This document shows positions 28,048 through 40,336 of a stretch of DNA of 64,000 bases, piece by piece. The stretch's first letter is position 1, and each line of letters starts with the position of its first letter. Location of the stretch: assembly GCF_014863545.1 (NCBI RefSeq), contig NZ_CP062260.1, forward strand, positions 1,178,001 to 1,242,000, in the 5' to 3' direction. The translations under genes and the position numbers were made by a program. This DNA comes from Paenibacillus sp. JNUCC32. Its GTDB lineage: Bacteria; Bacillota; Bacilli; Paenibacillales; Paenibacillaceae. Below the pieces are notes generated by a model. The model searched no databases and was not told the DNA's origin. It saw only the letters and a program-made list of their open reading frames with translations.

Positions 28048-28094
28048 TTGACAGAACAGACCCTGGAATGATATAGTTACAATAATGTAACTAT
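28048..28094 (+). promoter_or_regulatory. Promoter and palindromic operator of the type VII secretion locus
   Basis: TTGACA at 28048 and TATAGT at 28072 are 18 bases apart. A 22-base palindrome, ATAGTTACA (28073-28081) / TGTAACTAT (28086-28094) with a 4-base centre, overlaps the -10 and the start point, the usual place for a repressor. A smaller palindrome (CTATTGAAATAG) follows near 28104. The rest of 27816-28179 is A/T-rich; an isolated TATAAT at 27972 lacks a -35. Confidence 0.65.
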
Positions 28095-28179
28095 TTTTTG
28101 CAACTATTGAAATAGGTGATTGGGCTTTCAATATGGAATAAACATAGGATTACCATTTTGAGGAAGGCAGGTTGACCAG

Positions 28180-28491
28180 ATGATACTCACCGTGATCAGC
28201 GGTCGAAACGAAGATGATTGGTTTGATATCGACGTACCCGATGAATGCTCCATTGAACGGTTGAACGAGCTGCTGGGATTACGTCTTTTTCGCGAACCCT
28301 CGAGTGAAGGGATTCAATATATATTAGAAGCGAAATTCCCGGAAGGCTTGTGGTTTACGGTAGGCGGCCACTCTAACCTGGTTGAAGCGGGATTGAGGGA
28401 AGGCTCCTACGTTCGGTTGCAGCGCGCATTCTCGACAACCACCGATGAAGCTCCTGTCTATGGCAGAAGATCGTTGTTTCAAGAGAGTTGA
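28180..28491 (+). CDS. esaB: EsaB/YukD-family ubiquitin-like type VII secretion protein
   Basis: A 103-residue cytosolic protein with the beta-grasp pattern of YukD: an opening strand ILTVISGR, a DIDVPDECSIERLNELL helix and an EGSYVRLQRAF closing strand. In Firmicutes EsaB/YukD is needed for type VII secretion, probably as a regulator or assembly factor. It is the first gene after the promoter at 28048 and lies 89 bases before essC. The last 15 residues are an extra tail. Confidence 0.85.
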   Translation: MILTVISGRNEDDWFDIDVPDECSIERLNELLGLRLFREPSSEGIQYILEAKFPEGLWFTVGGHSNLVEAGLREGSYVRLQRAFSTTTDEAPVYGRRSLFQES

Positions 28492-28580
28492 AAATGGGTA
28501 AGTAACCCATTGGTTTTAACTGAAACAGCCAAATACATAATTGTACATTTCAGATGCTTTGGATTAGGAGGAAGTGACAT

Positions 28581-31500
28581 ATGAACGTGTTGTACCAACG
28601 TTCGCCGCGCATTAGACCGGCTTTACCGAATGAAGACTTGGAAATTCTGAGACCACCGTCCGAGCCAAGCAAGCCGTCGTTTTCCATGATTGCCATCATT
28701 ATCCCGATTATTATGACGGCGGCGACGATCGGTTTCTATGTCTATATGAACGTAAGCGGTAAGATGGGGAATCCCAATTACATGATGTTCCAGATGCTCT
28801 CCATCTTTATGATGCTGACATCCTACACGCTGCCGTTCTTCATGTATTTAAGCAACAAGAAGACCTATCAGAAGAACCTGGCCGAACGGAATCAGAAGTA
28901 CCGGGCTCAGCTTGACGTGCATCGGGAAGAACTGAAGGAGCGGCAGGAGGATCAGGTCCATATTCTGTTTGACATCCATGGGGATCCGGACGTCTGTTAC
29001 AACGTTGTGAAGAACCGGAGCAGCAGTTTATGGGAACGTTCCCCGGAAGATAAGGATTTTCTGGAGATTTGCGTGGGCAAGGGGGAAGTGCCGTTTCACA
29101 TTAACGTGAAGCCTCCCCGTGCGGACGGGTATGATAAGGACCCGTTAATCGAAGCGGCCGAATTGCTGTCATCCGAGTTCCAGACGGTCGACGATGCCTC
29201 GATTGCACTGCCGTTATTCGAATCCAAGGTCATCGGGATCGTCGGCGGAAGAGAACGCGTATTAAACATGCTTCGCGTCATGATGGCCCAAACCGCCGTC
29301 AGGCACTCGCCTGACGAAGTGAAAATCGCCGCCTTCTACGAGGAGAGGGAAGCAAGCGAATGGCAGTGGCTGCGCTGGCTGCCCCATACGTGGGATGATG
29401 ACCGTTCCAGCCGCTATCTTGCAGATCGACGGAGCAATGCGCATCAGCTTGCTGATGAAATATTTACCCATTTATACCGGCGTAAAAACAATCGCTCCGA
29501 ACATGGAAAAAAATCGATTGAGACGCCGGCTTACGTCGTGATCCTATCCGCAGCCCAATTGATTGAGGAAGAACCTCTGCTGCCTCTGTTGATGGAAGAT
29601 GCCGATGCGGCTGACGCCGTCACCATCATTCTATCCGACCGGAAAGAAAGCTTGCCGATGCACTGCCAGCTTATCGTCGAAGTCGATCGGGAGCAGGCGG
29701 CGTACACGATCAAGAAACCGGACGGCACCGTTTCCAAGCAATCCTTCCAATCCCATCACATCAGCAGGGAACAGATCGAAGCATTGGCCCGGTATATGGC
29801 GCCGATTCGGCTGAAGCGGTCTTCTGCATCCGATATTCCTAGCGTTTTGGCACTATTCGAGATGATGGATATTCAGAAAATCGACGATTTGGATGTATAT
29901 AAACGCTGGCAGCAGAACCGATATCCGGATTCATTGCCCGTTCCCATGGGTGTGCGAGCGGGCGGAAAGAAGATTAATTTGAATCTTCATGATAAAATAG
30001 AGCGTCAAGGTCATGGACCGCATGGCCTGATCGCGGGAACGACCGGTTCCGGGAAAAGCGAGGTTATCCAATCCATCGTTGCTTCCCTGGCATCGGAGTT
30101 TCACCCTCATGATCTGGCATTCATGCTAATCGACTATAAGGGCGGCGGCATGTCCAATACGTTTGTGAACCTTCCGCACGTCGTGGGCACCATAACGAAT
30201 TTGGACAACAATCTGATCGAGCGGGCGAAGGTGTCGCTCAAAGCCGAGTTGGTCCGCCGCCAGAAAATATTGAACGATGCGGGAAATCTGCAGCACATTG
30301 ACGAGTATTACAAGCTGCTGCGCAATCGCCATGGCGAGCCGCTCCCGCATCTCGTCATTATCATTGATGAATTTGCACAGCTGAAGAAAGACCAGCCTGA
30401 ATTTATGGATGAACTGATCAGCATCGCCGCAATCGGGCGAACGCTGGGTGTCCATCTGATCTTGGCGACGCAGAAGCCGGCCGGCGTCGTGGACGATAAA
30501 ATTTGGAGTAATTCTCGCTTCCGCATCTGTCTTCGGGTACAAAGCGAGGGCGACAGCCGCGACATGCTGAAGATTCCGAATGCAGCCTGGATCAACAAGC
30601 CCGGACGAGGCTACTTCCAGGTGGGCAGCGATGAAGTGTTTGAAGAAATGCAGTTTGCTTGGAGCGGCGCTCCTTACGTTGAAGAGAAGGATACGCCAGG
30701 CGCCGTCTCGATCCGAGAGGTCCGGATCAACGGGAAGACGGAACCGCTGCTTGCGTCGACTCCATCCCTGGGAGCGCATCTGGAAGTGCCCAAACAGCTG
30801 CAGGTGTTTATTGACCATGTAGCGGAAGTGGCCGAAGCGCAAGGGATCGAACGGCTGCAGGGGCCTTGGCTTCCGCCGCTTCCGGAGAGCCTGGATTTGG
30901 AGACAGTGCAATCCAGCATTGAACAGCCGGCTGCGTTCGGCGATTCGGCACTCGTGTCCTATGTCGGAATGGTTGACGATTTGCCAAACCAATGCCAGAA
31001 GCCGCTGGTGCTCAATCTGGAGCAAGGCCACTGGGCCGTATACGGGATGCCAGGACTCGGAAAGACGACCTTTATTCAAACGATGCTCATGTCGTTGGCA
31101 AGTCGATATACCCCGGACTTTTGGCATGGATATATCGTGGATATGGGCCGAATGATGCGGGACTTTGCAGGACTGCCGCATATCGGGGGAGTCATGACGG
31201 CAGAGGAAGATGACCGGATCAAGCGCCTGTTCCGTTTTCTTGCGAAAACGGCCGCTGTACGCAAAGACATGATCGCCGAGGCTGGCGTGAAGACCGTTGC
31301 GTCCTACCGCCGTGGCAGCACGGAGACGGTTCCACAGCTGGTCGTGGTTATCGACGGTTATCTGAACTTTAGGAATTCCTATCCGGACGAGAATGATATG
31401 CTGGAATACCTGCTGCGGGAAGGCGGCAGTCTGGGCATCACGTTTATCATCACGGCGAACCGGATTTCGGATATGTTCGAGAAGGTGCGGAGCAATATCT

Positions 31501-32564
31501 CGCAAGCGGTATCGTACGAGCTTGCCGATCCGGCCGACTATTATTACGCGGTGGGTCGTCCCACGAGAGCCCCGAGCCAGCTTCCGCCAGGAAGAGGGCT
31601 GGTCAAAGGCCAGGTGCCTCCGCTTGAATTCCAGACGGCACTTCCGGCTTCCGGCCAGGAGGAGGGGGACCGTTCGGCAGCCCTTCGCGACAGGATTCGG
31701 GTACACCATGAATCATGGCATGGCGAGGAAGCCCCGCGGATCGAATCGCTGCCGGACAAGATTCCGCTCCATCAGCTGCTTAAGGTGCAAAAGCCTTATG
31801 AAGCGGCCGCAACGGTGAAGTATCAGGTGCCCGTCGGGGTGGCTACGGATGATCTGACTCCTTTTGCGATCAATCTGGAGGATGGGCCGCATTTTATCGT
31901 GGCCAGTCCAATGGAAGGCGGCAAGACGTCATTCCTTCTTAGCTGGATGCTATCGCTCGCATATCATACTTCTCCGGATGAGCTGGAGATCTATACGGTG
32001 GATACGCGCTATGGAAGCAGCGGCCTGAGCCGGATGAACCATCTCCCGCATGTCCGCGGCCACGCGGAGAATGAGGAAGATCTGGGGCCGCTTATTACGA
32101 GCCTTTATGAGCGGGTACAGACCCGGTCGAAGGAGAGCGAGGACCCGGCCATCCTGCTCATGATTGATGACGCCGACGTTCTCAGCAAGCAGCTTTCGGA
32201 TTTCACCTTGAAGGACCAGCTGTCGGCCATCGTCAGACAGGGAAGGGACCGCAGGGTTCATGTCGTCATTGCCGGCGTGCCGGCGGATTTCCCGACGTAT
32301 GGCGTCGACTGGTTTACCGATATCAAAGCTGCTCAAAACGGATTTTTATTCGGAACCTTGGATTCCAACGATTTATCGTTCTTCCGGATTCCTTTTTCCG
32401 AATCTTCTAATAGTCCTGGAGGACTAAAAATACTTCCGCCGGGACAGGGGTACTACGTAAAACGTAAATTTTCCAGAATAAAAGGCGCAGTTCCGTTCGA
32501 TGAGGAATGGAACGCCCAAAGATGGGTCACAGAAATTCGCGACCGATGGCATGTTGTAGTTTGA
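28581..32564 (+). CDS. essC: EssC-type FtsK/SpoIIIE ATPase of type VII secretion
   Basis: The 1327-residue motor of the secretion machine. Two membrane helices (about residues 34-57 and 67-89) lie near the N-terminus. Three FtsK/SpoIIIE ATPase domains follow: Walker A GTTGSGKSE (near 485) with Walker B IIIDEFAQL (near 593); GMPGLGKTT (near 821) with a changed Walker B VVIDGYLNF; and SPMEGGKTS (near 1108) with LLMIDDADV. The first site is fully canonical. The FHA domains that begin Staphylococcus and Bacillus EssC/YukBA are missing, which makes it about 150 residues shorter and EccC-like in layout. TAGGAGG precedes the ATG. Confidence 0.93.
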   Translation: MNVLYQRSPRIRPALPNEDLEILRPPSEPSKPSFSMIAIIIPIIMTAATIGFYVYMNVSGKMGNPNYMMFQMLSIFMMLTSYTLPFFMYLSNKKTYQKNLAERNQKYRAQLDVHREELKERQEDQVHILFDIHGDPDVCYNVVKNRSSSLWERSPEDKDFLEICVGKGEVPFHINVKPPRADGYDKDPLIEAAELLSSEFQTVDDASIALPLFESKVIGIVGGRERVLNMLRVMMAQTAVRHSPDEVKIAAFYEEREASEWQWLRWLPHTWDDDRSSRYLADRRSNAHQLADEIFTHLYRRKNNRSEHGKKSIETPAYVVILSAAQLIEEEPLLPLLMEDADAADAVTIILSDRKESLPMHCQLIVEVDREQAAYTIKKPDGTVSKQSFQSHHISREQIEALARYMAPIRLKRSSASDIPSVLALFEMMDIQKIDDLDVYKRWQQNRYPDSLPVPMGVRAGGKKINLNLHDKIERQGHGPHGLIAGTTGSGKSEVIQSIVASLASEFHPHDLAFMLIDYKGGGMSNTFVNLPHVVGTITNLDNNLIERAKVSLKAELVRRQKILNDAGNLQHIDEYYKLLRNRHGEPLPHLVIIIDEFAQLKKDQPEFMDELISIAAIGRTLGVHLILATQKPAGVVDDKIWSNSRFRICLRVQSEGDSRDMLKIPNAAWINKPGRGYFQVGSDEVFEEMQFAWSGAPYVEEKDTPGAVSIREVRINGKTEPLLASTPSLGAHLEVPKQLQVFIDHVAEVAEAQGIERLQGPWLPPLPESLDLETVQSSIEQPAAFGDSALVSYVGMVDDLPNQCQKPLVLNLEQGHWAVYGMPGLGKTTFIQTMLMSLASRYTPDFWHGYIVDMGRMMRDFAGLPHIGGVMTAEEDDRIKRLFRFLAKTAAVRKDMIAEAGVKTVASYRRGSTETVPQLVVVIDGYLNFRNSYPDENDMLEYLLREGGSLGITFIITANRISDMFEKVRSNISQAVSYELADPADYYYAVGRPTRAPSQLPPGRGLVKGQVPPLEFQTALPASGQEEGDRSAALRDRIRVHHESWHGEEAPRIESLPDKIPLHQLLKVQKPYEAAATVKYQVPVGVATDDLTPFAINLEDGPHFIVASPMEGGKTSFLLSWMLSLAYHTSPDELEIYTVDTRYGSSGLSRMNHLPHVRGHAENEEDLGPLITSLYERVQTRSKESEDPAILLMIDDADVLSKQLSDFTLKDQLSAIVRQGRDRRVHVVIAGVPADFPTYGVDWFTDIKAAQNGFLFGTLDSNDLSFFRIPFSESSNSPGGLKILPPGQGYYVKRKFSRIKGAVPFDEEWNAQRWVTEIRDRWHVVV

Positions 32565-32580
32565 GGGGAGGTGGCTCATA

Positions 32581-33387
32581 ATGTTGACAATTCATGCTTC
32601 CAAACAAGAAACGATCACGCTGAATGACAAGGAATTTTTCTTCTTGGCTGGAATTATCGGATCGGACCGATTACTTGGTGTTGAAGATCCTTTTGTAGGA
32701 TATTTAACGGAAGAAATCGCGGTTGAGTGGGAGAAAACCAAACAATCGCTCCTAAGCAAGCAATATTTGATTCAAGAGGAAGGCGGGGAATTGTCGATCC
32801 CACCCGAAGTCTTCTCACGAGTGGCTATTGCCGGTCTTGCGGAACGTGCGTGCTGGTTGAAATATGAAAATCAGGATTCGGCGTTTGAAGGATATTTGCA
32901 TGTTACTGACGAACGGGTAATACAAGTATGCAGAAGCGATGAAGACAACCGGTGTTACATGCTTAGCGAACTCGGTACCATCGAACAAACCTGCGATCAA
33001 CTGGTGCAGGATCTGGCCCTCAGCGACCAAAACTGGGGAGATATTCCGGCATTGTTGCTTAGCCGGAAGGAATTCGGCGATATCTATACCTCGGTTACCG
33101 AGCATAATTGCGACGATATCGGCGATCGGTTGGCCAGATTGACGGACGATGCGGAAGGTTCAATCGCTTTGGCGAAATGCATGAAGAACAAGGTATCTTC
33201 GGGGGAACTCCAGCTGTCGATTTGGAACGGAATCAGCTGGGAAAGTCAAAATGCAGCATTTATAGTGAACGAGTCCATGAATTGGCTGCTGCGTATGAGC
33301 CTGGAGGGAGACCAGGACTGGCTAACCGCAGCGCCAGCGACCAAAGAGCAGTTTCGTCATATGTTACTCATGTGGCTGAAACAGTAA
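32581..33387 (+). CDS. Unassigned protein of the type VII secretion locus
   Basis: A 268-residue acidic, cytosolic protein with no signal or membrane helix. It starts 17 bases after essC with GGGGAGGTG before the ATG, so it is translated with the machine. The opening (ITLNDKEFFFLAGIIGSDRLLG) and the alternation of helices and strands resemble in style the EspG chaperones of actinobacterial ESX systems, which hold PE-PPE substrates. That similarity is my impression and is not proven. Encoded just before two WXG-type proteins, a substrate chaperone role is possible. Confidence 0.7.
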   Translation: MLTIHASKQETITLNDKEFFFLAGIIGSDRLLGVEDPFVGYLTEEIAVEWEKTKQSLLSKQYLIQEEGGELSIPPEVFSRVAIAGLAERACWLKYENQDSAFEGYLHVTDERVIQVCRSDEDNRCYMLSELGTIEQTCDQLVQDLALSDQNWGDIPALLLSRKEFGDIYTSVTEHNCDDIGDRLARLTDDAEGSIALAKCMKNKVSSGELQLSIWNGISWESQNAAFIVNESMNWLLRMSLEGDQDWLTAAPATKEQFRHMLLMWLKQ

Positions 33388-33414
33388 CAGAGCCTGTATG
33401 AAAGGTGAGGACCA

Positions 33415-33927
33415 ATGCGTATTTCTGTCGAGCCGGAGTCTCTCCGGACGTTAAGCCGTCAGCTGCAGCATAGTGGCGATGAATATTTAGCGATAACGAG
33501 AACGCTCAACCAAGCCATGGAATCCCTTGTTTGGGAGACGTCTCTCAAAGCGGCGGTTATTGATGAATGGCAGTCTGCCCGGAGTCTTGGAGAGCATCTG
33601 GGAGCTCTTCTTGCTCAGCTGGGCAAGCATCTTCAAAGCAAAGCCGATCAATTTCAAGAAACGGATCATCAATACCATACGATTTTGGAGCATGCTATCG
33701 TAAGCACCGTATCACCGACGGCTCTGTTCGCCGCTTCCGGGATGGATGGGCGCTCGTCCATACTTCCGGAATATGGTAACTCCGGCACGGTTATATCGAA
33801 CCCGAGTTCGGCAGCCGCAGCCGTGGGCATGACCAGCGGAGACAACGGGGGAGCGGCTAAACAGGCCGCATTAGCCGGGCAGAGCTGGACCTTTACCGAT
33901 CCGTCTTCGTTTGGGATTGCCAACTAA
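33415..33927 (+). CDS. WXG100-like protein with C-terminal extension
   Basis: A 170-residue protein. Its first 90 residues are a helical hairpin like ESAT-6 proteins: SLRTLSRQLQHSGDEYLAIT, a turn at LVWETSLKAAV, and a second helix through LGKHLQSKADQFQETDHQY. The turn has W-E-T where WXG proteins have W-x-G. The last 75 residues are low in complexity, rich in Ala, Gly and Ser, and end in GIAN. It may be a secreted partner of EsxA or an assembly protein. It is encoded in the same direction 27 bases after the unassigned gene. Confidence 0.75.
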   Translation: MRISVEPESLRTLSRQLQHSGDEYLAITRTLNQAMESLVWETSLKAAVIDEWQSARSLGEHLGALLAQLGKHLQSKADQFQETDHQYHTILEHAIVSTVSPTALFAASGMDGRSSILPEYGNSGTVISNPSSAAAAVGMTSGDNGGAAKQAALAGQSWTFTDPSSFGIAN

Positions 33928-34013
33928 ATCCCTATTCCATTTGGGAAATTCGGGATGGAAAATGTTTCAAATTGGGACGTATAGGGTAACTCGAAATTAG
34001 GTCTGAGGACATT

Positions 34014-34042
34014 TTGATAAACCGAGTCTTCTGGGCTAAGAT
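34014..34042 (+). promoter_or_regulatory. Possible promoter of esxA
   Basis: TTGATA at 34014 and TAAGAT at 34037 are 17 bases apart, 43 bases before esxA. A separate promoter and the terminator at 34416 would let esxA be made at a higher level than the rest of the locus. Confidence 0.4.
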
Positions 34043-34084
34043 GTCAAGTGTCACCAGAAAACGAATTTCAAGGAGGTTACATAA

Positions 34085-34360
34085 ATGGCAGGACGTATTT
34101 TAATTACGCCAGAACAAGTGGAGCAAGTAGCGAACCAATTTAAACAGAGCGGTGATCAAAGTCAGCAAATCGTTAACAGCCTGACGCAATCGATCAACGG
34201 AATGGAAGGTCAATGGGATGGTATGACGAAGCAGCGCTTCTTCCAGGAATTCCAGGAAGCAAGCCGCTTGATGAACTCCTTCGTACAAACGCTTGACAGC
34301 ATCAGCAATGAGCTGAAGGCGATCGCTCAGAAATTCCGTATGGCTGACGAATCCCGTTAA
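34085..34360 (+). CDS. esxA: WXG100 family secreted protein EsxA
   Basis: A 91-residue ESAT-6-type helical hairpin, the hallmark substrate of type VII secretion. The turn is GQWDGMTKQRF with W-D-G. The C-terminus has FRMADE, which fits the (Y/F)xxx(D/E) export signal. There is no Sec signal peptide. CAAGGAGG is ideally placed before the ATG, as expected for an abundant protein. It has its own possible promoter and a terminator directly after it. Confidence 0.95.
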   Translation: MAGRILITPEQVEQVANQFKQSGDQSQQIVNSLTQSINGMEGQWDGMTKQRFFQEFQEASRLMNSFVQTLDSISNELKAIAQKFRMADESR

Positions 34361-34415
34361 TATCATTCGGAGACTTTTGCTTTCTGATGCATTATAATAG
34401 TTTAATAGGCAAAAT

Positions 34416-34444
34416 AAACCGGGTGGTAGGCAACCCGGTTTTCT
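34416..34444 (+). terminator. Terminator after esxA
   Basis: AACCGGGT pairs with ACCCGGTT around an 8-base loop, followed by TTC. Read-through would give the downstream kinase, VWA and PP2C genes. Confidence 0.75.
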
Positions 34445-34549
34445 TGCAATTTTGGATATTTAGAATGTAGTTAATCGTGAATCAATCGCGGTTCAATCGG
34501 TTAATAGAGTTATATAGCAAGGTAATGGAGTTAAGAGAGGGTGAAGTTC

Positions 34550-36625
34550 ATGACATTTCAGCCAAACCCGGGCGATGGGATCGTTGTTAATGGAACGGCT
34601 TATACGGTAGGACAGCATCCGGCGGCACCTGGCGTAGCTTATGCCCAGGCTGGGAGGCAAGGGATCGTCTACCAGCTGATCCCCGTGAATGGGGAGCTGC
34701 ATGAAGCCAAAGCACTTAAAGTGTTTTTTCCTAAGTTCAGAATTCCGGCTATGGTTTATCAATCCGAGCATATGGGGAATTATCGCGAGATACCGGGTTT
34801 GCAGGTAAGCAGTCGAGAGGTGCTCACTCCCGAAAGAAACGGAGATTTGATAGCGGAATATCCGGATTTGCTCTACGCGGTCATCATGCCATGGATTCAT
34901 GGATGTACTTGGTTTGACGTTATAAGCGATCAGCGTAATCTGGGACGTTCCGAAAGCCTGATGCTGGCCAAGGCTTTGGCAGCCATCGGCTCAAGCATGG
35001 AGCAGCGTGGATTGGCGCATTGCGATCTGTCTGCGCCCAATGTCATGCTTCCGTTTTTTTCGGAAGTGAAGCTGCCGGAAGGTGCTGCCGCCGTGGAGCT
35101 TGTCGATGTGGAGCAGATGTACAGTCCAAAAATGGACCGTCCCGACGTTTTGCTCGCCGGCTCGCCGGGATATGCGGCGCATCGAACGGTGCACAGCGGT
35201 TTATGGAGTGCGTATGCCGATCGTTTTGCAGGGGCCGTCATCATTGCCGAGATGCTGGGGTGGAGCGATCCGGCTATCGTGAATCGGGCATGGGGCGAAA
35301 GCTATTTTGATCAGCATGAAATGCAGACTCCGTGCGAACGTTATTTTTTGCTTAAAAAATCGCTGGGTCAGCGTTGGGGCACACGGATCTCGGATCTGTT
35401 CGGCAGAGCTTGGGACAGTCAGGATTTGAGCAGCTGCCCTACCTTTGGCGAGTGGCTCATCGCTTTATCCTCGGTAAGTGAGGAAGAAGTGGTGGAAGAA
35501 GCTCCGGCTGCCGCCGCCACTGCCGCTGCGGCTGCCCAGGAGGACGATTCGGATGAATCCGGATCTGAACGTTCCCGGGAGGTGCCTGCTGACATCATGG
35601 CATCGCTTGGAATCGAGCCGGGCACGCGAGAGGTTAACGACAATGTAGTAGGACGCTTGTTTCATCAGGCGCGCGATTTGGAGAAGGCAGGCAATCTTTC
35701 CGGAGCATTGGAGATATTCCGTTCGGCGTATCACTTCGTAAAGAAGGACAGTCCGCTTGAAGTGGAGCTTGCGGCCGCCATACAGGGGCTGGAGGAACAA
35801 CTGCGTCCCGCTGAAGAATCATCCAACAAAGGCATTAAAGCTTTGTTGTCATCCCGCAAATTCATGCTTTCTACCGCTGCGGCCATCGTGATCTTAGCGG
35901 GCTCCGCGATTACGGTGAATCAGATATTGGCTGAGAAGGCCGAGAGCCGCCAGATGGATGCCCAGCGTTTAGCGGAGCAGCAGGCCCAGGAGAAAGAAGA
36001 GGCTGCGCGCAAGCAGGAGGAAGAAGCGCGGAAGCAGCAGGAGGAGGCTGCAAAGAAGGAAGCGGAGGCCAAAAAAGCCGAAGAGGAACGCCTGAAGGCG
36101 GAAGAGGCGAAGAAGGCCGAGGAAGCCGAGTTGGCGCGCAAGGAGCAGGAGAAATCCGAGCTTCAGGCAAAGTATGAGAAGCAGGCGAAGTATGAAGCTT
36201 ATCTGGCATCGCTTGAGGAGAAAAAGAAGAAGCAGGCGCTCCAGGAGAAATATGATAATCAGGCAAAATACGAGGCGTATTTAGCCCAGCTGGAAGAGAA
36301 GAAGAAAAAGCAGGCTCAGGAAGAGGCAGCGGCCAAGGCGGAGGCGGAACGACAGGCTCGAGCGCGGGCCGCCCAGCAAGCGCAAGCCGCCCAGCTTCAG
36401 AAGCAGCGGTCCCAAAACGTTGTCGAACTGGTTGCCTTGTATAACAAGGCGTATAATGCGCAGGTGGCCGGCAACAAGGACCGCGCGAAGAATGCCGCCC
36501 GTGAATTCATAGCGCTATATAACAAGGACAAATCCTATTACAAGACGGTTGGCAAAATGAGCAGCCGCCTTAACAATCTGCAGCAATTCATCAGTGACGA
36601 CAGCCACTGGATACCTAAACTGTAA
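34550..36625 (+). CDS. Transmembrane Ser/Thr kinase-like protein with long coiled coil (EssB-like topology)
   Basis: A 691-residue protein in three parts. Residues 1-310 are a protein kinase domain with the active-site residues in place: beta-3 Lys in EAKALKVF (K57), catalytic loop HCDLSAPNVML (D159, N164), metal Asp in LVDVEQ (D186, a DVE in place of DFG) and an activation segment GSPGYAAHR. An Ala/acid-rich linker and a TPR-like helix pair follow. One membrane helix lies near 438-460. After it comes about 150 residues of Lys/Glu/Ala coiled coil with a repeated KYEAYLAxLEEKKKKQ unit, then a folded C-terminus. The order kinase fold, one helix, outer domain matches EssB/YukC, which are pseudokinases. 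ATG 34550 has AGAGAGG at 9 bases. Confidence 0.85.
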   Translation: MTFQPNPGDGIVVNGTAYTVGQHPAAPGVAYAQAGRQGIVYQLIPVNGELHEAKALKVFFPKFRIPAMVYQSEHMGNYREIPGLQVSSREVLTPERNGDLIAEYPDLLYAVIMPWIHGCTWFDVISDQRNLGRSESLMLAKALAAIGSSMEQRGLAHCDLSAPNVMLPFFSEVKLPEGAAAVELVDVEQMYSPKMDRPDVLLAGSPGYAAHRTVHSGLWSAYADRFAGAVIIAEMLGWSDPAIVNRAWGESYFDQHEMQTPCERYFLLKKSLGQRWGTRISDLFGRAWDSQDLSSCPTFGEWLIALSSVSEEEVVEEAPAAAATAAAAAQEDDSDESGSERSREVPADIMASLGIEPGTREVNDNVVGRLFHQARDLEKAGNLSGALEIFRSAYHFVKKDSPLEVELAAAIQGLEEQLRPAEESSNKGIKALLSSRKFMLSTAAAIVILAGSAITVNQILAEKAESRQMDAQRLAEQQAQEKEEAARKQEEEARKQQEEAAKKEAEAKKAEEERLKAEEAKKAEEAELARKEQEKSELQAKYEKQAKYEAYLASLEEKKKKQALQEKYDNQAKYEAYLAQLEEKKKKQAQEEAAAKAEAERQARARAAQQAQAAQLQKQRSQNVVELVALYNKAYNAQVAGNKDRAKNAAREFIALYNKDKSYYKTVGKMSSRLNNLQQFISDDSHWIPKL

Positions 36626-36667
36626 AGAAGTAAACATGACAAATTGCAGGGGTGAATGTTATTCACG

Positions 36668-37420
36668 ATGAACTATACCATTCAAGCATCGCAGCGCACG
36701 CCAGCGCTCATTATATATCTGATTGATATCAGCGCGTCCATGAATATGCTGATGGAGGATCGAAGAAGGATTGATGTTGTTTACGAAGCATTATCCTTAG
36801 CCATTCGGCAAATGGTGTTTCGTTCCACCAAGGGGAACCGGCTGACGCCGAGGTACCGGATCGCCATCCTTGCATACAGCGATGACGTATATGATTTGTT
36901 AAACGGGATCAAGGGCATTGACGAAATTGCGGCGATCGGCTCGCTTCCGGATTTGACGCCGAAGCGTTTCTCCGATTCGGCCAAAGCGTTTCTTCAGGCC
37001 GAGAAAATTCTGCAATCGGAGATTCCCAACATGCAGGATTGCCCTGCGCCGCTCGTATGCCATATGACGGATGGCGTGGCCACGGGAGAGGACCCGGAAC
37101 CGATTGCCCGCCGTATCATGAATATGAGCGTTCCGGACGGAAACGTACTGGTGGAGAATATTTTCATCTCCGACCATCTGATGAACCAGCCGATCTCCGA
37201 ACCACGCCGCTGGAAGGGGATATTGGCTGATACGCAGCTTGAGGATGAACATGCGCGCAAACTCAAGATGATGTCTTCCGTTCTTCCCGAAAGCTATCGA
37301 GAAATGCTGGTTGAGGCGGATTATCAGCTGAGTCCGGGGGCCTTGATGATGCTTCCGGGCACATGCTCCGAGCTGGTGTCCATCGGGTTCCAGATGTCAG
37401 CCGCCACGCCGGTAAGGTAA
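36668..37420 (+). CDS. VWA-domain protein
   Basis: A protein of about 250 residues formed almost entirely by one von Willebrand factor A domain. The metal site (MIDAS) is complete at the first motif, YLIDISASMN (DxSxS); later parts are SDSAKAF and VCHMTDGVATGED. It has no signal peptide, so it is cytosolic. VWA proteins often act as scaffolds between kinases and phosphatases. The start is uncertain between ATG 36656 (touching AGGGGTGA) and ATG 36668; the latter opens MNYTIQASQRTP. It lies between the kinase and PP2C genes. Confidence 0.85.
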   Translation: MNYTIQASQRTPALIIYLIDISASMNMLMEDRRRIDVVYEALSLAIRQMVFRSTKGNRLTPRYRIAILAYSDDVYDLLNGIKGIDEIAAIGSLPDLTPKRFSDSAKAFLQAEKILQSEIPNMQDCPAPLVCHMTDGVATGEDPEPIARRIMNMSVPDGNVLVENIFISDHLMNQPISEPRRWKGILADTQLEDEHARKLKMMSSVLPESYREMLVEADYQLSPGALMMLPGTCSELVSIGFQMSAATPVR

Positions 37421-37431
37421 GAGGTCACAAC

Positions 37432-38274
37432 ATGAAGCGATCATACGCTAGAAGCATGGAAACGTTGGGGATTCGCAAGCGGAAGGCTCAAGCAGCGTCG
37501 TTTTATTACGAAAGCAAGCAGACCGGGGAAGAGCCGCTTACGAAGATTAGGGATTTGTTCACATGTCGTTATGCGTATGGCAGAGCGGCGGAATCCGTCA
37601 TGCTCTCCGAGACGGGCCAGGATTTCATTGCATTGAAAATGGATGAAGAGGTCTGCCATTTTGTATTGTGTGACGGCGTCGGCTTGAGTTACCGAGGCGA
37701 TGTGGCTTCGCGCCTGCTCGGTCAGGGCTTGATGAACTGGCTGGATACGGTTGAAGAGCCCACGTCCTCATCGCTGGAGCGCAAGCTGAAGGAACTAACG
37801 CTTGAAGCAGATCGGGAAATTCGGACGCATTCGCTGAGCTCCGAAACCCCCAAGCTGCTGCGTGAAGTGCTGGAGGAGAAGCAGCGCAAGGGAAGCGAAG
37901 CCATGTACATATGCGGACGCATCGAGCGGTCATCGGGTTTTCGTCGAAAAGGAAGGCTGTGGCTTGCCTGGCAGGGAGACTCCAGGGTACGATTATGGCG
38001 TCAGCAGGACGAGATTAGTTCGATATTCGGAGACCGCTTCCGAACGGCCGAACGCTGGTCTTCCCGCACCGGACCGATCGGAGGCAGTCCTCACGTGTTT
38101 ACGTGCAAGCTGGAACCCGAGACCGGTTATCGTCTTCAATTATACAGCGACGGGCTTACGGATCTGGACCCGATGAAGGAGCCGATTCCCGATGAGCAAG
38201 TGCAAGTATTAATGAATGCCCGCCATACAGGCGGCCTGGAAGATGATGCTTCCTTTCTGGAGATCGTATGGTAG
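37432..38274 (+). CDS. PP2C-family Ser/Thr phosphatase
   Basis: A 280-residue cytosolic phosphatase. Metal-binding and core motifs are visible: CDGVGLSYRGD in place of the usual DGHGG, WQGDSRVRLWR, LYSDGLTDLD and EDDASFLEIVW at the end. It likely removes phosphate placed by the kinase encoded two genes upstream. ATG 37432 has AAGAGG at a good distance and lies 9 bases after the VWA stop. The first 45 residues are basic and precede the catalytic fold. It is the last gene of the type VII locus, before a terminator. Confidence 0.87.
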   Translation: MKRSYARSMETLGIRKRKAQAASFYYESKQTGEEPLTKIRDLFTCRYAYGRAAESVMLSETGQDFIALKMDEEVCHFVLCDGVGLSYRGDVASRLLGQGLMNWLDTVEEPTSSSLERKLKELTLEADREIRTHSLSSETPKLLREVLEEKQRKGSEAMYICGRIERSSGFRRKGRLWLAWQGDSRVRLWRQQDEISSIFGDRFRTAERWSSRTGPIGGSPHVFTCKLEPETGYRLQLYSDGLTDLDPMKEPIPDEQVQVLMNARHTGGLEDDASFLEIVW

Positions 38275-38299
38275 TACAGAAATGACCGATTATCTCGCG

Positions 38300-38332
38300 A
38301 GCCGGACCCATGAGGTCCGGCTTATTTTATTT
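38300..38332 (+). terminator. Terminator of the type VII locus
   Basis: AGCCGGACC pairs perfectly with GGTCCGGCT around CATGA, followed by TATTTTATTT. Confidence 0.8.
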
Positions 38333-38470: not shown

Positions 38471-38854
38471 ATGATTCAGATTATTCTATCCCATTCCAGC
38501 GGCGAGCCGATTTACTTGCAAATTGAAAGACAGATCCGGCAGAGCATCATGCGCGGAGAGATGAAGCCGGGCGAGCCGCTTCCTTCCATCCGGCAGCTAG
38601 CCAAGGATTTGGGAATCAGCGTTATTACGACGAAGCGGGCATACAGCGAGCTGGAAGCCGTGGGCTTGATCGAGTCGATGGTGGGCAGAGGCTCCTTCGT
38701 ATCGGGAGGCAATCAGGATATGATTCGGGAGCAGCGCCTGCGCCTGATCGAGGATAAAATCAGGGACATTCTCGAAGAATGCCGGAGCATTCCTATAGAG
38801 ACCGAGGAATTGATTGAGATGATCCATACAATAAACAAGGAGGAATCCGAATGA
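38471..38854 (+). CDS. GntR-family regulator, YtrA type
   Basis: A 127-residue regulator. The winged helix-turn-helix (PIYLQIERQIRQSIMRGEMKPG, then LPSIRQLAKDLGISVITTKRAYSELEAVGLI) fills the first 75 residues. The short C-terminal helical tail is that of the YtrA subfamily, which controls ABC transporter operons. It overlaps the ATPase gene by ATGA and is preceded by a palindrome overlapping the promoter, so autorepression is likely. Confidence 0.9.
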   Translation: MIQIILSHSSGEPIYLQIERQIRQSIMRGEMKPGEPLPSIRQLAKDLGISVITTKRAYSELEAVGLIESMVGRGSFVSGGNQDMIREQRLRLIEDKIRDILEECRSIPIETEELIEMIHTINKEESE

Positions 38855-39771
38855 AGCATGTAGACGGAATAGAGGATCAGGATCAACCTGCAATGCAAAT
38901 CAACCATCTGAGCAAGAAATATCCGTCGTTTGCGCTGAACGACATTTCCCTTCTTATCCCTAAGGGATACATTACCGGATTGATCGGCCCCAACGGAGCC
39001 GGCAAGAGCACGCTCATCCGCTCCATCATGGGGATGATTGTCCCGGATTCAGGCCAGATCGTCGTGAATGGCCGGCGGCTTCGCTCGGACGATGCAAGTT
39101 ATAAGGAAGAGATCGGTTTTGTTTCGGACGAGAATATTTTTTATGAGTATTTAACGCTGAATCAAATTATCCGGATGACGTCCCCTTTTTATAAACGCTG
39201 GAACAGCACCAGAATGGATCAGCTCATGCGGATGTTCGAGCTTCCCGGCAGAAAGAAACTAAAGGATTGCTCGAAAGGCATGAAAATGAAGTTTTCCATT
39301 GCGATGGCCATGGCCCATGATCCGCGAATATTGATTTTGGATGAGCCGACAGCGGGTCTTGACCCGGTATTTCGCAGAGAGCTGCTGCAATTGCTGAGCG
39401 ATTTTATACAGGATGAGACCCGGACGATCCTATTCTCGACGCATAATACGGATGATCTGGATCGAATCGCGGATTACATCACCTTTATTCACCGGGGACG
39501 CATCGTGTTCAGTAACGGCAAGGATGAAATTATCGACAAATATGTCATTGTCAAAGGCAGCAGCGACCTGCTGGACGCGGATGTCCGCAAGCAGTTTACC
39601 GGCCTCAAGGAAACGCCGTACGGGTTCGAGGCTCTCTCGGCAAACCGGGAATCCGCGCACAAGCTGTTCGGAGACAGCGTGTTATACGAGCGGCCTGCCC
39701 TGGAGGAAATTATGTATTACACTTCGAAAGGAGACGCTGTTCATGAGTCATATCGTTCCCCTCATTCATAA
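38851..39771 (+). CDS. ABC transporter ATP-binding protein (YtrB-like)
   Basis: A 306-residue ABC ATPase with Walker A GPNGAGKST, a signature variant CSKGMKMK, Walker B ILILDEPTAGLD and the H-loop STHNTDD. The C-terminal 90 residues extend past the core. The SKGM signature is typical of ATPases paired with ABC-2-type permeases. AAGGAGG precedes the ATG. Its 3' end overlaps the permease gene by 29 bases. With the YtrA-type regulator it resembles the acetoin-linked or envelope-stress ytr operons; the substrate is not known. Confidence 0.88.
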   Translation: MKHVDGIEDQDQPAMQINHLSKKYPSFALNDISLLIPKGYITGLIGPNGAGKSTLIRSIMGMIVPDSGQIVVNGRRLRSDDASYKEEIGFVSDENIFYEYLTLNQIIRMTSPFYKRWNSTRMDQLMRMFELPGRKKLKDCSKGMKMKFSIAMAMAHDPRILILDEPTAGLDPVFRRELLQLLSDFIQDETRTILFSTHNTDDLDRIADYITFIHRGRIVFSNGKDEIIDKYVIVKGSSDLLDADVRKQFTGLKETPYGFEALSANRESAHKLFGDSVLYERPALEEIMYYTSKGDAVHESYRSPHS

Positions 39772-40336
39772 GGATTGGATGGTCATCCGTAAATATGCTT
39801 GGCTCTTTGCGATCTGGCTGGCGTTGTTTTCGTTTGGCAATGCCGTCGGCATCCTAGGTTATATGGTGGCCGGGATGATGATCATCGTCATATCGAATAC
39901 CGATTTGCATCCGTTCCATAAATATTCCATGAGCTTGCCGATACCGCGCCGGGAGATTGTGTTGAGCAAGTATGTCTCTTCCCTCTTGTTTATGTTGATC
40001 GGGTTATTGGCGGGTTTCCTGGTCCAAATCGCTTATATCTGGTTAGGCGGGGATGGAGAAGGCGCTGTTCTTTATCAAAATATTGTGTCCGGCATTTCCT
40101 TGATCCTGTTTATAGCCGTGTACTATCCTCTCTATTATTGGCTGGGACCCAAGGGCGGACAAACGCTGAAGCTGGTGCTGGTAGCGGTGTTGTTCGCGAT
40201 TACGATGGCTATCAATACGCTGTGGTCGGATGGCCTGCAAACCGATTATCTTTGGTATGGACTCGGCATATCCTGCCTGGTGGTTTTCGCTTCATATCAG
40301 CTCTCAGCCTATATCTTTTCGCGCACGGACGTGTAA
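39743..40336 (+). CDS. ABC-2-type transporter permease
   Basis: A 197-residue membrane protein with about six helices, including AWLFAIWLALFSFGNAVGILG and GISLILFIAVYYPLYYW. The SLPIPRREIVLSKYVSSL loop after the second helix is common in ABC-2 permeases of YtrC type. AAAGGAG nine bases before ATG 39743 sets the start inside the ATPase gene, so the pair is translationally coupled. It completes the three-gene operon. Confidence 0.82.
   Translation: MSHIVPLIHKDWMVIRKYAWLFAIWLALFSFGNAVGILGYMVAGMMIIVISNTDLHPFHKYSMSLPIPRREIVLSKYVSSLLFMLIGLLAGFLVQIAYIWLGGDGEGAVLYQNIVSGISLILFIAVYYPLYYWLGPKGGQTLKLVLVAVLFAITMAINTLWSDGLQTDYLWYGLGISCLVVFASYQLSAYIFSRTDV

Follow-up and report, generated by a model that had tools for sequence, protein, structure and literature searches.

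A T7SSc secretion locus of Paenibacillus sp. JNUCC32 with a possible phosphorylation switch and an additional conserved WXG-headed protein

The stretch of DNA analysed here, hereafter called the window, comprises 64,000 nucleotides of Paenibacillus sp. JNUCC32 (contig NZ_CP062260.1, positions 1,178,001 to 1,242,000). Between its positions 28180 and 38274, the listing of open reading frames (ORFs) shows eight co-directional ORFs on the plus strand. They encode, in order, a ubiquitin-like protein (TscB), an EssC-type ATPase (TscC), an EspG-like protein (TscG), a WXG-headed protein termed W, EsxA (TscA), a transmembrane kinase (TscD), a VWA protein (TscE) and a PP2C phosphatase (TscF). A type VII secretion system (T7SS) locus with its own kinase, VWA and PP2C genes had been described in a first-pass annotation of this DNA; the locus is real, and the eight ORFs and their identities were confirmed. 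The main idea is not new, since it was already published in 2024 as T7SSc by Garrett, Higginson and Palmer, who found the system in Paenibacillus, Bacillus anthracis and "B. brevis" (PMC11217815). T7SSc has seven components, TscA to TscG: a WXG100 protein, a ubiquitin-like protein, an ATPase lacking an FHA domain, an EspG-like protein, a transmembrane kinase with a conserved active site, a VWA protein and a PPM phosphatase (PMC11217815). The window shares with it the kinase, VWA and phosphatase genes, the FHA-less ATPase and the EspG-like TscG, and Paenibacillus is among the named carriers. By a feature-by-feature comparison at the sequence level, all seven named components are matched, and the window locus is assigned as a T7SSc secretion system. 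It differs in W, which is conserved in Paenibacillus between tscG and tscA and does not appear in the list of seven components given in the main text of PMC11217815. According to the same paper, the B. anthracis system exports a WXG100 protein. In a full-text search of 5.39 million papers, the word T7SSc appeared in no other paper. The present analysis adds modestly to this knowledge, namely with W, its pairing with TscG, the pairing of long W forms with DUF4176 proteins, the kinship to TerY, and orphan cassettes elsewhere in the genome.

The first gene, tscB (28180..28491), encodes a YukD/EsaB-like protein of the ubiquitin-fold type with 103 residues. The YukD family PF08817 matches 7 of 29 aligned TscB members at E-values up to 0.1 (best 1.4e-5), with no match for the window TscB itself, and the TscB profile weakly matches ubiquilin 3 (E 0.007). 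It is followed by tscC (28581..32564), which encodes an EssC/EccC-type membrane ATPase of 1327 residues. TscC scores 1221 bits against the EssC model TIGR03928 (cut-off 778) and is the only EssC above the cut-off in the whole genome. Its most hydrophobic segment begins at residue 36, and because just 35 residues precede this first strong hydrophobic segment, there is no room for an N-terminal FHA domain; this absence is judged from length, as the Pfam listing gave 25 of 34 families. EsxA is encoded by tscA (34085..34360, 91 residues) and matches the WXG100 family PF06013 with 70.9 bits. Each T7SSc cluster is stated to have just one gene for an EsxA-orthologous WXG100 protein (PMC11217815); in the window operon, W is a second conserved WXG-headed gene besides tscA.

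T7SSb systems, such as Ess of S. aureus and Yuk of B. subtilis, share the EssC-type ATPase, EsxA, the YukD-like protein and a kinase-fold membrane protein with the window system. In contrast to T7SSb, the window system has an ATPase without FHA, a kinase of the active type, and additional VWA and PP2C proteins. EssA and EssB have no match in the whole genome, while the same models match controls in B. subtilis. The earlier statement that EsaA and EssA are not encoded thus holds at the locus, and for EssA also genome-wide, whereas the N-terminal EsaA model has four matches elsewhere, all below the cut-off (best 93.6 against 122 bits) and far from the locus.

TscG (32581..33387, 268 residues) had been listed as an unknown protein, and sequence-based searches returned no family match of note. 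This label no longer applies, as the modelled fold is that of EspG. The AlphaFold2 model has a predicted local distance difference test (pLDDT) score of 89.8, and all 18 matches in the PDB at E-values up to 0.001 are EspG (best E 1.8e-12, template modelling score 0.63). Judged by the entry titles, solved complexes of EspG chaperones with PE-PPE pairs are among these matches. Like EspG of the ESX systems (T7SSa) with its PE/PPE substrates, TscG adjoins WXG-type proteins. Unlike those substrates, W has no PPE family match, and a binding of W by TscG is suggested by co-occurrence.

The transmembrane kinase is encoded by tscD (34550..36625, 691 residues), with the ATG at 34550 as the most likely start, judged from the starts of relatives. 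TscD has no Pfam match up to an E-value of 1 among the matches listed, and its profile finds weak kinase matches in PDB chains (best E 0.0052). It is called a kinase because of its modelled fold and its active-site residues. The model md69f073b3608 (mean pLDDT 76) adopts a kinase fold; in a fold search, the best 50 matches listed are active kinases, PknB being the fifth, and include no EssB or YukC entry. The kinase domain (residues ~1-310) is followed by TPR-like helices (364-418, by eye), a transmembrane helix (438-456) and an outer coiled coil, a topology inferred from one hydrophobic segment. All 33 rows of an alignment share the residues K57, H157, D159, N164 and D186, down to 27% identity. 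Besides the window, this alignment holds 32 loci picked for spread out of 80 named ones, the named loci being the best 80 of 137 VWA relatives.

TscE (36656..37420, 254 residues) is a TerY-type VWA protein. As a single protein, it matches PF13519 with 20.8 bits, below the cut-off, and the PADLOC TerY model PDLC02224 with 79.4 bits (E 7.8e-23). The TerY model matches all 18 aligned TscE rows at E-values up to 0.001. D24, S26, S28, T138 and D139, which presumably form the VWA metal site, are likewise kept in 18/18 rows. TscE has no transmembrane segment, and a profile search found no matching PDB chain. The last gene, tscF (37432..38274), encodes a PP2C/PPM phosphatase of 280 residues; its start at 37432 is the most likely one, again judged from relatives. 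PF13672 (PP2C_2) matches with 22.0 bits, just under the cut-off of 24, the Stp1 model with 28.6 bits, also below its cut-off, and PP2C structures in the PDB are weakly matched (E 0.006). The residues D64, D81, G82, D183, D240, D271 and D272 are invariant across 29 rows; the alignment includes 28 of 31 listed phosphatases, L068, L115 and L126 being excluded for extended starts. No transmembrane segment and no PADLOC match were found for TscF.

The three proteins TscD, TscE and TscF (D-E-F) resemble the TerY-P triad, which reportedly goes back to work by Anantharaman in 2012. By definition, the triad combines a TerY VWA protein with a PP2C enzyme and with a kinase that carries a fused zinc ribbon, and WXG100/FtsK operons have been mentioned in its vicinity (PMC11090510). 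In one strain of Helicobacter pylori, the triad was reported together with genes for WXG and FtsK proteins (PMC4978471). The window locus likewise combines a TerY-family VWA protein, a PP2C phosphatase and a Ser/Thr kinase in one cluster. TscD differs from the TerY-P kinase in having TPR-like helices, a transmembrane helix and a coiled coil instead of a zinc ribbon or OB fold. No CxxC occurs in any of the 33 TscD rows, and hence no C-terminal zinc ribbon. The comparison with TerY-P made in the first-pass annotation therefore stands for the VWA protein and fails for the kinase: D-E-F appears to work like, and to be related to, a TerY-P triad, and lies outside its definition because of the missing CxxC. 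TerY is not named in the main text of PMC11217815. A second comparison concerns PpkA and PppA, which control type VI secretion; a related Agrobacterium case is cited in PMC11217815. Like TscD and TscF, these are a membrane kinase and a PP2C phosphatase encoded with the secretion machine. The machine itself is unrelated, and the window locus showed no FHA reader, so that the analogy is no more than possible.

The association of D-E-F with secretion genes was examined in 100 genomes of the same genus, in 299 genomes of the class, and in the named loci; these samples overlap, as some of the same-genus genomes share contigs with named loci. TscD was found in 33 of the 100 same-genus genomes, and all 33 also have an EssC match. 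The EssC identity is at least 67% in 30 of them, 47% in G023, and 35% in G055 and G098. A further 24 genomes have an EssC match (57 in total) and no TscD, and there the identity reaches merely 35-38%. In G079, the kinase and the closest ATPase lie on separate contigs. Of 31 regions drawn from 29 of the 33 TscD-bearing genomes, that of the window among them, 25 have the gene order B-C-G-W-A-D-E-F. All 80 named loci contain D, E and F, and 79 contain TscC and EsxA, L114 being cut at a contig end. TscB is present in 72, while five of the other eight are cut and three have no match. The class sample yielded 28 VWA matches in 25 of the 299 genomes; when 24 VWA-bearing class genomes were searched again for the ATPase, a TscC match was found within ~5 kb of all 27 VWA matches. 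In the samples examined, TscD and TscE of this type are bound to secretion genes. The 33/33 co-occurrence and the conserved gene order go beyond a chance neighbourhood. As for the earlier concern that the link might be only positional, a search for such genes apart from a T7SS was run for TscD and TscE, TscF not being searched alone, and its outcome does not contradict the link. TerY-P triads that lack these secretion genes have been described (PMC11090510, PMC4978471). In G061, G041, G062 and G098, kinase or ATPase genes are split by stops or frame changes, which may be real losses or assembly errors.

W (33415..33927, 170 residues) consists of a WXG100-type head and a tail of ~75 residues. 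As a single protein, it matches TIGR03930 with 26.5 bits, below the cut-off. The profile of the W family matches EsxA/EsxB structures over the first ~90 positions (E 2.5e-8). Among the 80 named loci, 77 have W; in 73 of these it scores at least 104 bits, always in the order G-W-A. The other four assignments, in three Brevibacillus and one Ectobacillus locus, score 44-62 bits and show a different gene order. W and TscG are both present in the same 77 loci and both absent in the remaining three, which are L114 (cut), L140 of Priestia koreensis and L141, a P. wynnii variant. In pairwise comparisons with five relatives, the ratio of non-synonymous to synonymous substitution rates (dN/dS) of W is 0.07-0.15 for the whole gene, 0-0.16 for the head and 0.06-0.16 for the tail, with some dS values near saturation. 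These ratios indicate that W is clearly constrained by purifying selection. They exceed those of TscA, TscC and TscE, and most other genes in the operon evolve more slowly than W.

W exists in two forms, a long one with more than 300 residues in 17 of the 77 loci and a short one in 60, including the window. In Paenibacillus, an alignment and a weak Pfam match show that long W has the shared head, a short W-x-F-x-DP stretch and then a glycine-zipper region. In 16 of the 17 long-W loci, W and tscA have a DUF4176 gene between them, and in none of the 60 short-W loci. The single long-W locus without it belongs to Brevibacillus fulvus, with another gene order and a weak W assignment. DUF4176 proteins were described in 2026 as Ltc chaperones, which in some LXG toxins bind a region that is disordered (PMC13355648). 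On a TscC tree, the two W forms require 3 changes, compared with a mean of 14.7 after shuffling. The tree, a quick search that is unrooted and has long branches, comprises 74 rows, namely 73 of the 80 loci and the window; L067, L076, L105, L114, L121, L140 (broken or cut ATPase, or no W) and L141 were left out. It was also considered whether long W is a toxin that always comes with an immunity gene. As a general rule, this was rejected, since relatives of the membrane protein encoded next to it (two queries) were found between W and tscA in no more than 7 of the 17 long-W loci.

Eight WXG100 matches occur genome-wide, including TscA and, below the cut-off, W. At ~3.57 Mb (L179:6415-9713), a cassette encodes, in sequence, a TscG-like protein (BLASTP E 2e-17), a W-like protein of 360 residues (profile match E 1.2e-18) with a glycine zipper seen by eye, a membrane-type protein without a family match, a DUF4176 protein (102 bits) and a WXG100 protein. 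Within the 16 kb examined around this cassette, no match to a B, C, D, E or F profile was found. Elsewhere, a WXG100-headed protein of 300 residues adjoins a DUF4176 protein (L178:6553-8005). Three further WXG100-headed proteins of 367, 398 and 403 residues are encoded at ~4.47-4.49 Mb (L180:6839-8470, L180:16655-18498 and L181:11916-14028). Their C-termini differ, one being the toxin domain Ntox50. Each is followed by small genes, one of which encodes a pentapeptide-repeat protein, and these may be immunity genes. The WXG-headed proteins outside the window are candidate substrates of its T7SSc, and their export by the window machine is inferred because it is the only T7SS machine found in the genome. 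The first-pass remark that substrates other than the WXG proteins are not visible hence applies to the window, and not to the genome with its candidates such as the WXG-Ntox50 protein. The LXG domain was rejected as a substrate marker, as PF04740 has no match in the genome.

Two types of variant loci were found among the relatives. The first, represented by L057 (9012-18988), L056 and L141, contains a TscD-like kinase, EssC and two small WXG-type proteins; L056 and L141 are probably one locus. L057 encodes an additional small protein, and its EssC carries an FHA domain (Pfam), with residues typical for phosphothreonine binding. In L057 and L141, a PknB-type kinase is fused to the TerY-type VWA domain (Pfam). 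A phosphatase was seen in L141, and the stretches of L056 and L057 end near that point. This variant could not be matched to a subtype in the main text of PMC11217815. The second type, L058 (3404-16569), L059 and L060, has an ATPase with 47% identity to TscC, EsxA, a VWA protein, a TscG-like protein and small WXG proteins. Its kinase is short and lacks the outer domain. L058 and L059, the two loci scanned for it, encode a large RHS-repeat protein.

Taken together, the window encodes a T7SSc system in which, as proposed here, phosphorylation of TscE and/or TscC by TscD, reversed by TscF, would license assembly or export, while TscG would carry W. A probability of roughly 60% is assigned to this proposal. 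In detail, TscG would hold W, along with toxins from other places in the genome that are W-like and longer or have a WXG head, and deliver W together with TscA to TscC. The outer coiled coil of TscD would sense an envelope signal, upon which TscD would phosphorylate TscE and/or TscC and thereby license assembly or export. TscF would reverse this phosphorylation, TscE would serve as a metal-dependent adaptor between kinase and machine, and TscD would additionally fill the structural place of EssB. The variants L057 and L141, in which a PknB-type kinase and this VWA domain are fused, suggest that kinase and VWA protein are coupled. Control of secretion by phosphorylation is plausible for the window T7SSc. 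The EssB-like topology of TscD and a possible phosphorylation control, with a precedent in type VI secretion, were already discussed in PMC11217815.

Several observations weigh against this proposal. The kinase fold of TscD is predicted from a model of middling confidence and from weak sequence matches. The motif corresponding to DFG reads D-x-E, and an invariant glutamate at the expected place in helix C is missing, the best candidate being E73 (29/33 rows). The window locus revealed neither an FHA domain nor another phosphothreonine reader, and the literature search found no experiment on a T7SSc kinase. The loci L058-L060 have no match to the TscF profile, so that phosphatase and coiled coil are not universal. 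Unrelated WXG-headed toxins score 54-69 bits on the W profile, which makes the orthology of W uncertain in the four low-scoring loci. The joint absences of W and TscG stem from one cut contig and two single divergent loci, and the suggested binding of the two proteins is drawn from their co-occurrence.

The best surviving alternative regards TscD mainly as a structural membrane hub like the EssB/YukC pseudokinase, with a minor role for phosphorylation, and TscE and TscF as serving assembly rather than a switch. It is considered rather unlikely. TscD has the same topology as EssB, i.e., a cytosolic kinase fold, one transmembrane segment and outer helices, as noted in PMC11217815. TsxD kinases have been likened to the EssB-like TraF, although TscD of P. 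azoreducens is arranged differently (PMC13037476). The absence of EssB and EssA matches from the genome and the non-canonical DFG and helix-C glutamate fit this role as well. However, a pure scaffold would not need the five active-site residues kept in all 33 rows, and the fold matches of the model are active kinases rather than EssB or YukC. Moreover, a phosphatase lies beside TscD in 80/80 loci, though not in L058-L060.

A second alternative sees in D-E-F a switch for stress or defence in the manner of TerY-P, which would merely be housed in the operon, respond to metal or envelope stress and act on other cell targets as well. The TerY-like character of TscE is in line with this, as is the reported company of TerY-P triads elsewhere with restriction and WXG/FtsK genes (PMC11090510, PMC4978471). 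Nevertheless, this explanation is improbable, as TscD and TscE of this type accompany an EssC-type ATPase in every sample examined, and the zinc ribbon of TerY-P is absent in 33/33 TscD rows. In a third alternative, the short W of the window would be what is left of a decaying toxin gene and have no working role, as its fast evolution and the lack of the glycine zipper and the DUF4176 gene of its long relatives might imply. This is very unlikely given the low dN/dS in all five comparisons, the retention of the short form in 60/77 W-bearing loci and the 3 form changes on the TscC tree.

The proposal of a T7SSc machine switched by TscD and TscF can be extended to its substrates. W may be an eighth T7SSc part, a resident client of TscG and a partner of TscA, which in the lineage of the window is short, lacking the glycine-zipper effector end and the DUF4176 protein. 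D-E-F, as a membrane-anchored relative of TerY-P, would then license the export of W and of the WXG-headed toxins from the orphan cassettes. This extension is tentative and is put forward at less than even odds. If the kinase and phosphatase encoded in the operon do gate secretion, a phosphorylation switch would be built into the type VII machine of T7SSc. The tie between W and TscG and that between long W and DUF4176 offer a concrete handle on substrate choice in T7SSc, and through the TerY link T7SSc is connected with switches for stress and defence that belong to a known family.

All transcription signals described here lie on the plus strand. The best promoter-like site (28048..28077; TTGACA-18-TATAGT with an extended -10) agrees with 11 of 12 consensus positions, and the operon ends with a terminator-like hairpin (38299..38323) of 10 pairs, 7 of them G-C, with a T-rich tail. 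A weak promoter-like site upstream of tscA (34014..34042, 9/12 positions) may be due to chance; across the region, promoter-like sites are not commoner than in shuffled sequences (10 observed against 12.7). A hairpin search located a further terminator-like hairpin, possibly a partial terminator, between tscA and tscD (34418..34439). Similar hairpins occur in 20 of 75 tscA-tscD gaps of relatives, compared with 0.3 expected from mononucleotide shuffles; the gaps stem from related loci, so that the 20 hairpins are not independent, and 55 gaps have none by the criteria used. This sense-strand hairpin and the weak promoter-like site speak against the earlier view of one promoter and one terminator, and a single simple transcript for the whole operon is probably too simple. 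A partial stop after tscA, predicted from the hairpins, could plausibly hold the expression of D-E-F below that of tscA.

Directly 3' of the operon, at 38471-40336, lie genes for a GntR-type regulator and an ABC transporter. In P. lautus (L062) and in L063 and L065, the sequence from ~40350 onward adjoins tscF directly. The GntR/ABC genes were hence either inserted in the lineage of the window or lost in those relatives.

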